From Rothia amarae (GTDB taxonomy: Bacteria > Actinomycetota > Actinomycetes > Actinomycetales > Micrococcaceae): a stretch of 64,000 bases of DNA. Under the pieces are notes generated by a model, which did not search any database, was not told the DNA's origin, and was given only the letters and a program-made list of their open reading frames with translations. Position numbers and translations under genes: made by a program. Below, one piece after another: positions 25,547 to 35,380 of this stretch; position 1 is the first letter of the stretch; each line of letters begins with the position of its first letter. The stretch lies in contig NZ_CP061538.1 in the NCBI RefSeq assembly GCF_014705945.2, positions 1,736,001-1,800,000 on the forward strand, in the 5' to 3' direction.

Positions 25547-25663
25547 GGTCCCGCGCTTGCACACCCCGCCGGTGAGGTGTACCCGGTCATCACCCAGGGC
25601 ACCCCACCGCGAGAGGAGGGTTGCCGACCAGTAAGCTGGGGCTTAACACTGGTTCTCTTGACC
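25547..25663 (-). promoter_or_regulatory. SAM-IV riboswitch upstream of metY
   Basis: On the minus strand the RNA reads GGTCAAGAG, then AAGCCCC, CTGGTCGGCAACCCTCC, CGCGGTGGGGTGCC and GGGTGATGACC. This matches the SAM-IV aptamer core used by actinobacteria, with P1 closed by GGTCA/TGACC. The ACACC/GGTGT hairpin and GCAAGCGCGGGACC follow, as expected for the 3' pseudoknot part. A GCCCCA/TGGGG hairpin further downstream may be part of the expression platform. It would switch off metY-metX when S-adenosylmethionine is plentiful. Confidence 0.9.
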
Positions 25664-34051: not shown

Positions 34052-34798
34052 TTAGAGGTAGATAACCTGTCCAACTTCGATGAGGTCGGGGTTGGTGATG
34101 CCGTTAGCAGCTGCCAAGTCCCAGTAGGAGGTGTAACCGTGAGCCAAAGCGATTTCTGAAAGGGTATCGCCAGCCTGAACGGTGTAGGTGTTAGCTACAG
34201 GAGTTGCGGCAACAGGTGCCTGAGCGGCGGGCGCTACAGGAGCCTCAGTTGCGACGGGGGCAGCAGGTGCTTCAACAGCAACAGGTGCCTGAGCGACGGG
34301 AGCCTCAGTTACGACGGATGCAGCAGGTGCTTCAACAGCAACAGGAGCCTCAGTTGCAACGGGCGCAACGGGAGCTACAGCCTCAGCCTGAGGTGCCACA
34401 GTGGTTTCCTGAACAGGAGCTGCTGCAGGTGCAGCAGTGTTTGCGGTTTCACCGGAGCCGTAAAGACCAAGGTTTGCGGAGCAAGCAGGCCATGCGCCCC
34501 AGCCCTGACCGGCAAGTACGTTTTCAGCTACACGAATCTGCTCAGCTTTGGAAGCAGTGGTAGGTGAACCGGAGCCACCAAATGCAGCCCAGGTTGAAGG
34601 AGTGAACTGCAGACCACCGGAGAAGCCGTTGCCGGTGCTGATGCCCCAGTTACCACCGGACTCGCACTGTGCCAGTGCGTCCCAGGTTGACTCTGATGCA
34701 GCATTTGCGGGAGCAGCGAAAGATGCTACTGCTGCGCCACCAACTACGAGAGCTGCTGCTGAGCGGGTTACATTACGGCGAATTGAAGTCTTTTTCAC
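34052..34798 (-). CDS. Resuscitation-promoting-factor-like protein with LysM
   Basis: A 248-aa secreted cell-wall hydrolase. The GTG at 34798 (GGAG 5 bases upstream) is chosen over a longer frame that would read through the structured leader. Residues 1-33 are a signal peptide ending ANA. Residues 35-110 are an Rpf/transglycosylase-like domain (STWDALAQCESGGNW with the catalytic E46, then GGLQFTPSTWAAFGG). Residues about 118-195 are an Ala/Pro/Val linker with imperfect APVA repeats. The C-terminal LysM (YTVQAGDTLSEIALAHGY) anchors it to peptidoglycan. Rpf proteins cleave glycan strands and promote regrowth of dormant cells. Confidence 0.92.
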   Translation of the reverse strand: MKKTSIRRNVTRSAAALVVGGAAVASFAAPANAASESTWDALAQCESGGNWGISTGNGFSGGLQFTPSTWAAFGGSGSPTTASKAEQIRVAENVLAGQGWGAWPACSANLGLYGSGETANTAAPAAAPVQETTVAPQAEAVAPVAPVATEAPVAVEAPAASVVTEAPVAQAPVAVEAPAAPVATEAPVAPAAQAPVAATPVANTYTVQAGDTLSEIALAHGYTSYWDLAAANGITNPDLIEVGQVIYL

Positions 34799-34993
34799 GA
34801 TGCTCCGAGAGGGCCACCTAACGCTCGTCCAGTCCCCTGGCTTCAATGCGTTGCCGTCTACCCTAGATGCTATTGGGTATCTGTTGAGGTTTTGCCCTGT
34901 AGACGGACTCAGGTGTGCGGCAAAACCCGGCATGTTCATCAGAGCGAAGTTTGCTCTGAATCATGTGCCCCGATCGCTCGGGGATTTCGTTCG
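34799..34993 (-). promoter_or_regulatory. Structured leader RNA with predicted pseudoknot before the Rpf gene
   Basis: About 195 nt between the predicted start of transcription and the GTG fold strongly. Hairpin A is CCCCGA/TCGGGG (34968-34983). Hairpin B pairs GGCATG..CAGAGC with GCTCTG..CATGTGCC (34929-34969). Hairpin C has the 9-bp stem GGTTTTGCC/GGCAAAACC (34888-34927). Inside its loop, GTAGACGG (34899-34906) is fully complementary to CCGTCTAC (34854-34861) outside, giving an 8-bp pseudoknot. A CCAG-GGGA-CTGG hairpin follows toward the GTG. It does not show the ydaO (c-di-AMP) consensus by eye. A ligand-sensing role is an inference. Confidence 0.6.
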
Positions 34994-34999
34994 TTGATA

Positions 35000-35029
35000 A
35001 CGATACTGTAACGATTTCGATTCTGCCAA
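35000..35029 (-). promoter_or_regulatory. Candidate promoter of the Rpf gene
   Basis: On the minus strand, TTGGCA (35029-35024) and TATCGT (35005-35000) are 18 bp apart and would start transcription just before the structured leader. The remaining gene-free stretch (35030-35452) is AT-rich, and nothing else stands out except the ligA hairpin. Confidence 0.45.
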
Positions 35030-35380
35030 CCACTTTTTAGGATAAATCACGAAATGGTAAAGAATTCAGCAGGTTTAGCGTTTTCCGGGTGTTTTCCCTG
35101 AATTTTTTATGTCACAGCCTTAACCCCACGCAAAATCCGCGCCATTCCAAGGTAAAAATTCATAAGCAGACTTCGTACTTTACCGGTTTTTTTGTTACCA
35201 AAACGCAATATTTGCATCCTCAGCGCCATAAAAAAATTTTAAAAAAACTTGTATAGACCACCCTGGAAGAGAGGCTTTTTAAGGGACATCGCCCAAAAAT
35301 GCGACCCGCCTCTCATACGAAGACGCATCCTTTCTACTCCTTCTGAGCTCCTAAAAATTTTGCAACGTACAACACAACAG

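Follow-up and report, generated by a model that had tools for sequence, protein, structure and literature searches.

Rpf enzymes wake dormant actinobacteria and, since they cut the cell wall, need restraint. The window analysed here, a stretch of 64,000 nucleotides from Rothia amarae (contig NZ_CP061538.1), carries on its minus strand a gene of this kind behind a 195-nt leader, which extends from a promoter-like site to a GTG start codon. The initial annotation had suggested that this leader is a regulatory RNA with an 8-bp pseudoknot that controls exit from dormancy. Is the leader a genuine folded RNA, does it belong to a known family, and how might it act on the gene behind it?

The rpf gene (34052..34798, minus strand, GTG start at 34798-34796) encodes a secreted Rpf-LysM protein, in which PF06737 covers residues 33-106 (E 2.4e-30) and a LysM domain residues 205-247 (E 7e-13), in agreement with the Rpf type originally annotated; with the NCBIfam Rpf model NF046106, the protein scores 147, under the model's cut-off of 180. 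The assignment of the start codon rests on the Shine-Dalgarno sequence GGAG (34803..34806, minus strand) and on the position of the start among relatives. The rpf frame stays open through the whole RNA up to an ATG at 34939 (34939-34052, minus strand; 295 aa), and this upstream ATG was judged not to be the start.

A compact variant of the lysM-Actino family

At the curated Rfam cut-offs no match is reported at the leader. Below its cut-off of 153.8 bits, however, the lysM-Actino family (RF03090) aligns with the leader from end to end (model positions 1-215, 65.2 bits, E 3.3e-15 for 601 bases searched; E 3.2e-15 in the whole-genome search). The supposition that this RNA falls outside the known Rfam classes is therefore not upheld; what stands of the proposed different regulatory RNA is a structured leader that is distinct from ydaO and tied to rpf, in a class that Rfam already holds. 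The window copy scores below the cut-off because about 71 nt of the RF03090 model, located between P3 and helix B, are deleted in the alignment of the compact form. Apart from this insert, the window RNA and RF03090 share the same gene type, the same place and the same outer helices. Furthermore, as the family name implies, the gene immediately behind the window RNA is an actinobacterial cell-wall gene of the lysM type, and an over-threshold member precedes rpf in the same genus (R. mucilaginosa record L203, 242 bits). By these alignments, the leader RNA is best described as a compact member of an already catalogued orphan RNA family, scoring under its threshold, and not as a new class. A literature search found no paper naming 'lysM-Actino' or 'RF03090'.

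All 35 Rothia genomes contain an RF03090 match, one per genome at E <= 0.01, of which six pass the cut-off and 29 fall below it. The matches are 135-142 nt long in 28 genomes and 204-221 nt long in the other seven. In the family sample, matches at E <= 0.01 occur in 121 of 245 genomes and in 19 of 32 genera, with three genomes over the cut-off. The few over-threshold copies and the mostly compact lengths therefore suggest that the RF03090 entry and its cut-off describe a Rothia subgroup with the long insert, within a family that is mostly compact. Most Rothia copies escape the cut-off, and lysM-Actino looks more widespread than its Rfam entry suggests.

To describe the compact form, alignment A1 was assembled from 33 of 38 compact loci (L011-L014 and L018 omitted as near-copies, L010 kept), the seven long loci being excluded. 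Model R1 was built from A1, and 80 further loci found with RF03090 were then added and re-aligned. All 100 of 100 sources were matched in alignment A2. Alignment A3 holds 102 matches from 100 sources; it omits L064, L102, L109 and L119, which are near-copies of A2 rows, and L091, the second copy within one genome. The window copy has a core of 139 nt (34799..34937, minus strand) and scores 131.3 bits with R1, to whose seed it belongs.

A conserved pseudoknot in the leader

The exact 8-bp pairing of the initial annotation is present: CCGTCTAC (34906-34899) faces GTAGACGG (34861-34854) and forms helix B. It is crossed by a 9-bp pairing, helix A, between GGTTTTGCC (34927-34919) and GGCAAAACC (34896-34888). 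In RNA letters, CCGUCUAC (34899..34906)/GUAGACGG (34854..34861) thus crosses GGUUUUGCC (34919..34927)/GGCAAAACC (34888..34896), all on the minus strand. Among 500 dinucleotide-preserving shuffles of the leader, some exact 8-bp pairing arose in 13.6% and a 9-bp pairing in 4.6%, and two crossing pairings of at least 8 bp in 0.8%. A lone 8-bp match is weak evidence; the crossing pair of helices is not. The four stable hairpins noted at the outset were located at 34983-34968, 34959-34939, 34927-34888 and 34840-34829, the third being helix A of the pseudoknot. Folded without pseudoknots, the leader has a moderately low energy (z -1.96), with 7 of 200 shuffles equally stable.

The fold was examined through the changes that its helices have undergone in relatives. 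Across the 24 nested pairs of A3, an alignment fitted to them, 92.7% of cells are standard pairs, against a shuffled mean of 82.3%, and changes on both sides occur in 23 of the 24. Such double-sided changes include all eight pairs of helix B and all four of P3 (CACC, 34912..34915, with GGUG, 34815..34818, minus strand). We further compared the duplex energy of each strand with its own partner and with partners permuted between sequences, using 49 representatives below 80% identity. The own-partner total was -784 for helix A (permuted mean -535, sd 17), -637 for helix B (permuted mean -382, sd 19.5) and -165 for P3 (permuted mean -111, sd 5); as the sequences are related and not independent, these figures are not probabilities. 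The strands nevertheless differ greatly in sequence, as GGGUUUUGCC, GGGUCAUACC and CGGGCCUGCC illustrate. Helix A is present in none of the models used, which makes its swap test an unfitted one. It is 81.7% paired in A1, where it shows a one-base offset outside Rothia (a bulged A), and for this reason it was tested by duplex energy. Compensatory changes, the check that the annotation had called for, hence support the pseudoknot: two crossing helices, each with covariation support, form an H-type-like arrangement, and the leader is a genuine folded RNA that evolution has conserved. The pseudoknot and hairpin P6 both share in this conservation, and invariant unpaired bases are present.

The consensus line of RF03090 printed by cmscan shows no pseudoknot. 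Helix B corresponds to the nested 9-bp helix of that line, and the hairpin that it crosses, helix A, is beyond the reach of a covariance model.

Among weak or diverged matches, helix A was tested in 46 rows of alignment A4 against mononucleotide shuffles of its 3' strand. The result was p <= 0.1 in 30 rows and p > 0.1 in 13 (L318, L328, L342, L331, L279, L296, L298, L277, L323, L319, L207, L286 and L282), with three rows lacking a testable strand (L290, L251 and the second, antisense match in L289).

The core has one further pairing and possibly another. P1 joins AUGC (34930..34933, minus strand) to GCAU (34800..34803). A possible P5, seen by eye in A1 and not counted, would join ACCC (34875..34878) to GGGU (34863-34860), the last two bases of which are in competition with helix B. 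Upstream of the core, the window carries 5' hairpin A (CCCCGAGCGAUCGGGG, 34968..34983, from the folding of the leader) and 5' hairpin B (UCAGAGC..GCUCUGA, 34939..34959), the latter having a hairpin of other sequence at the same place in many relatives. The 45 nt 5' of the core have a mean z of -1.46 in the 49 representatives, 33 of which lie below -1. In many relatives, stable hairpins of varying sequence immediately precede the core, their counterpart in the window being 34939-34983; their role is perhaps protection of the transcript.

Hairpin P6 and its k-turn-like loop

P6a pairs ACGC (34848..34851, minus strand) with GCGU (34824-34821), and its three modelled pairs all show double-sided changes and are 100% paired, in an alignment fitted to them. 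P6b is a hairpin, CCAG-GGGA-CUGG (34829..34840), with a GNRA loop and double-sided changes in three of its four pairs. The two are separated by an internal loop with a bulged strand AUU-GA-AG (34841..34847) and an opposite strand AC-GA (34825..34828). Among the 102 copies, the bulged strand measures 7 nt in 96 and the opposite one 4 nt in 90; a 3-nt bulge without fixed sequence is followed by G.A in 90 and by A.G in 89, and the cap is GGGA in 101. Deviations were seen at position 2n (U or C in 12/102) and at position 1b (A in 12/102).

A 3-nt bulge followed by G.A and A.G is the layout described for k-turns in PMC10573300, and P6 has it, placed between two helices. The k-turn hairpins of riboswitches such as SAM-I share this layout, which in P6 is capped by a GNRA loop; in contrast to them, the P6 k-turn is predicted from sequence alone. 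P6 may serve as a docking arm. The present analysis adds the extent of the compact form (a core of about 135 nt), an unfitted test of the pseudoknot, and this k-turn-like P6 as a candidate docking hairpin.

Distribution beyond Rothia

Outside the Micrococcaceae, one clear occurrence is in Amnibacterium setariae (Microbacteriaceae), whose two copies score 80.8 and 66.8 bits with the broader model R2, of which both are seed members, and 58.8 and 38.5 bits with R1, the seed of which lacks them; one copy is also matched by RF03090 (E 7e-5). The second clear case is a metagenome-assembled genome (MAG) labelled Acidobacteria, a label that looks wrong, with the same arrangement. In both loci (L222 in A. 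setariae, L221 in the MAG) there are two RNA copies with an Rpf domain after each. Weak matches of 19-26 bits precede rpf in Frondihabitans and Curtobacterium. Order-wide scans of 396 genomes each gave 24 positive genomes with R1 and 27 with R2; as eight candidates were scored per genome, they constitute a weak negative. The sole out-of-family match (E 0.003) had no Rpf downstream and was taken as chance.

The RNA went undetected in several genera of the family that do possess an rpf gene of this type. Among the genomes sampled, R2 found no copy at such a gene in, e.g., genera g14, g16, g21 and g10, save for one weak 13-bit match in g10. At locus L138 (1334-1424), in or after the rpf gene, several microRNA hairpin models match on both strands, all below their cut-offs; the stretch is surely not a microRNA and is perhaps an inverted repeat of note.

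A leader tied to rpf

The RNA is tied to a single type of gene. An Rpf domain lies within 1200 nt downstream in 174 of 175 matches, a count in which some genomes enter under two names, and the exception is a weak match in another family. In the window, the RNA match ends at 34799 and directly abuts the GTG start. Among relatives, the search for a start codon began 8 nt ahead of the RNA end; the first one in frame lies between -7 and +12 nt of that end, most commonly directly after it (41/174). Of the 102 copies, 92 have GGAG in their final 14 nt. The longest end-to-end stem comprises 3-6 bp and covers at least one GGAG base in 85 of these 92, G-U pairs being allowed and chance not controlled for. 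The window P1 has 4 bp and touches a single GGAG base, the last G. Its support in A3 is weak: a standard fifth pair occurs in only 32 of the 98 sequences counted, and pairing over the whole helix reaches 81.5%, the alignment having been fitted to it.

A scan for terminator-like sites on the minus strand of the leader found none. Together with the adjacency of the start codon and the overlap of GGAG with P1, this favours control of translation over attenuation. In genera g3 and g12, the diverged copies have no GGAG at the RNA end and a start that is further away, and gating of the Shine-Dalgarno sequence is hence not universal.

A leader RNA has been described on another rpf gene, namely the switch in the 5' UTR of rpfB of M. 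tuberculosis, the ligand of which is likewise not known (PMC6009663). As presented there, it differs from the window RNA in being a transcription attenuator with an intrinsic terminator, in being confined to some pathogenic mycobacteria, and in preceding rpfB. The word pseudoknot does not appear in that paper, whereas the lysM-Actino RNA is pseudoknotted.

We tentatively propose the following mechanism. The crossing helices A and B, P3, and P6 with its k-turn-like bend and GNRA loop would build a compact body, which the short helix P1 would close. The 3' strand of P1 overlaps or abuts GGAG, beside the GTG start in the window, and with the body folded and P1 formed, ribosome access would be reduced. 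A signal that alters the fold could then open P1 and allow Rpf to be made. With its riboswitch-like fold, set downstream of the promoter and ahead of the start codon of rpf alone, the RNA would thus gate expression of that gene. The leader probably controls the amount of Rpf protein made; the direction of the gating and a ligand or a protein as its signal are conjectural, and a part in the exit from dormancy is suggested by the identity of the gene. A conserved RNA on the ribosome-binding site of rpf, in many members of the family and oral Rothia among them, would offer a direct handle on the signal for waking up.

Relation to c-di-AMP and ydaO

The rpf leaders of other actinobacteria supply an obvious candidate for this signal. 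In the Streptomyces rpfA leader, binding of c-di-AMP leads to premature termination, according to PMC10117811. Control by c-di-AMP is presented as known for rpfA in Streptomyces and as predicted for rpf1 in Corynebacterium, and cell-wall genes are given as the usual targets of actinobacterial c-di-AMP riboswitches (PMC10117811, PMC9960051). The ydaO/yuaA riboswitch (RF00379) of these leaders occupies the same position before rpfA or rpf1 as the lysM-Actino RNA does before rpf. The window RNA differs from it in fold, shows no sequence match to it, has no terminator that we could find, and occurs where the cyclase domain (DAC) is undetected. As the annotation had remarked of its consensus, ydaO is not seen here: the window contains no match at the curated cut-off, and the stretch 34600-35200 has none at E <= 10. 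The genome has one ydaO match, elsewhere, before a gene read as NlpC/P60-like, and it has a DAC match.

A second kind of c-di-AMP riboswitch might therefore stand in the place of ydaO, with c-di-AMP shutting rpf off. The choice of a cell-wall gene would suit this reading, as would the distribution of the two RNAs. In 80 named rpf loci, which are the best matches to the window protein and not a random sample, the lysM-Actino RNA precedes rpf in 32 (R2, E <= 1; five of them weak, at 19-27 bits) and ydaO in 11 (Rfam), and none has both. The ydaO-rpf loci belong to Streptomyces, Kitasatospora, Nocardia, Aldersonia, Antrihabitans and one unclassified MAG. In addition, the 19 genera with RF03090 matches initially all fell within the 25 genera in which a survey detected DAC (none being found in 51 of 240 family genomes), the seven DAC-negative genera being RNA-negative. 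This genus-level link was rejected as a detection artefact because 12 DAC-negative genomes have the RNA before rpf when searched with R2, and a further three when searched with R1. In the search concerned, Rpf was found in 68 of 68 family genomes (123 matches), and 74 upstream regions were searched with R2.

The DAC-negative genomes examined numbered 27 (20 from the survey, with G131, G136, G148, G161, G235, G260 and G123), and 15 of them, in genera g2, g3, g5 and g12, have the RNA before rpf. R2 accounts for 12 (E <= 6.5e-6) and R1 for three, in g5, with the match in L290 spanning model positions 23-125 only; the R2 seed includes the three R1 cases and contains nothing from g2, g3 or g12. In these 15 genomes, a search for DAC at E <= 1 yielded nothing at the Pfam cut-off (best E 0.039). 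Helix A is retained in the DAC-negative set, with an own-partner total of -199 against a permuted mean of -122 (sd 12) and 0 of 3000 permutations as good; of the 16 rows, two add nothing to these totals (L290 and the antisense match of L289) and two are probably out of register (L296 and L298). Diverged copies outside g5 (L287, L289, L296, L304 and L277) have no RF03090 match at E <= 0.05, and their kinship consequently rests on R2, position and helix A. Finally, the 11 genomes of g2, g3 and g12 that were examined yielded no ydaO match, and ten of them keep the lysM-Actino RNA. Retention of the RNA in genomes without a detectable cyclase domain constitutes a natural experiment against the most obvious ligand, and for this reason c-di-AMP appears unlikely as the signal, a possible source of error being a diverged cyclase in these genomes. 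We regard a c-di-AMP riboswitch of a second kind as very improbable.

A relation of the RNA to ydaO itself was also rejected: an Rpf motif lies downstream of none of the best 30 ydaO loci of the family, as judged by a regular expression on a picked frame that looks wrong for, e.g., L147, L163 and L169. Six genomes, G068, G148, G161 and G235 of g5 and G060 and G087 of g27, have ydaO over the Rfam cut-off and no DAC at E <= 0.1; either their cyclase has diverged or the riboswitch has outlasted it.

Other readings of the leader

A protein might take the place of a ligand, with a k-turn-binding or other RNA-binding protein acting on P6 to control translation or decay. About nine of ten copies have the k-turn layout in P6, and a single target gene per genome suits a protein-mediated leader, including one through which a protein that binds the RNA regulates its own synthesis. 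Conservation that reaches beyond P6 into the pseudoknot speaks against it, and k-turns in riboswitches are often purely architectural. On balance, this reading strikes us as rather unlikely. The structure might also be constitutive, protecting the mRNA or fixing the level of translation in response to no signal. The hairpins of varying sequence that often stand just 5' of the core fit such a stabilising or insulating role, as does persistence of the fold in g3 and g12 after the link to GGAG was lost; against this, invariant unpaired bases and a GNRA-capped, k-turn-like hairpin exceed the needs of a generic stabiliser, and one specific gene carries the RNA across two families. We consider a signal-free role improbable. 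As to k-turns in general, PMC4316175 presents them both as protein sites and as elements of riboswitch architecture.

A chance pairing in a GC-rich region, the leader perhaps lying inside the longer reading frame, can be dismissed with near certainty: the frame is indeed open from the upstream ATG, and an 8-bp pairing is frequent enough in shuffles, but covariation, the RF03090 match and the position of the start next to the RNA end in relatives all contradict it. We therefore favour, with moderate confidence, the reading in which the compact lysM-Actino leader gates translation of rpf through P1 touching the Shine-Dalgarno sequence, in response to a signal that is probably not c-di-AMP. A bolder version, which we hold as doubtful, would make lysM-Actino a widespread class of translational riboswitch dedicated to rpf in Micrococcaceae and some Microbacteriaceae, with a pocket at the junction of pseudoknot and P6, that replaced the c-di-AMP riboswitch at this gene; its signal, other than c-di-AMP, might just as speculatively be, for instance, a cell-wall precursor or fragment.

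Sequences upstream of the RNA

The promoter-like site TTGGCA-18-TATCGT (35000..35029, minus strand; TTGGCA 35029-35024, TATCGT 35005-35000) was found by sequence scan, with one such site in the scanned stretch against 0.5 expected in shuffles, which is weak support; the transcript would start near 34993. A direct repeat, CGTTAC-N5-CGTTAT (34997..35013, minus strand), overlaps the -10 element with an 11-bp period and is possibly a response-regulator site. It resembles the two-direct-repeat sites reported for MtrA in PMC5650626, which also lists rpfB among the targets of MtrA in M. tuberculosis. In the 180 nt 5' of the RNA, AAATCG occurs in 33 of the 49 representatives, CGTTAC (on either strand) in 22 and GATAAC in 22, far above the 2.4, 3.9 and 2.6 expected from mononucleotide shuffles. 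Elsewhere in the window, a SAM-IV riboswitch lies on the minus strand at 25548-25663 (109.7 bits, above its cut-off).
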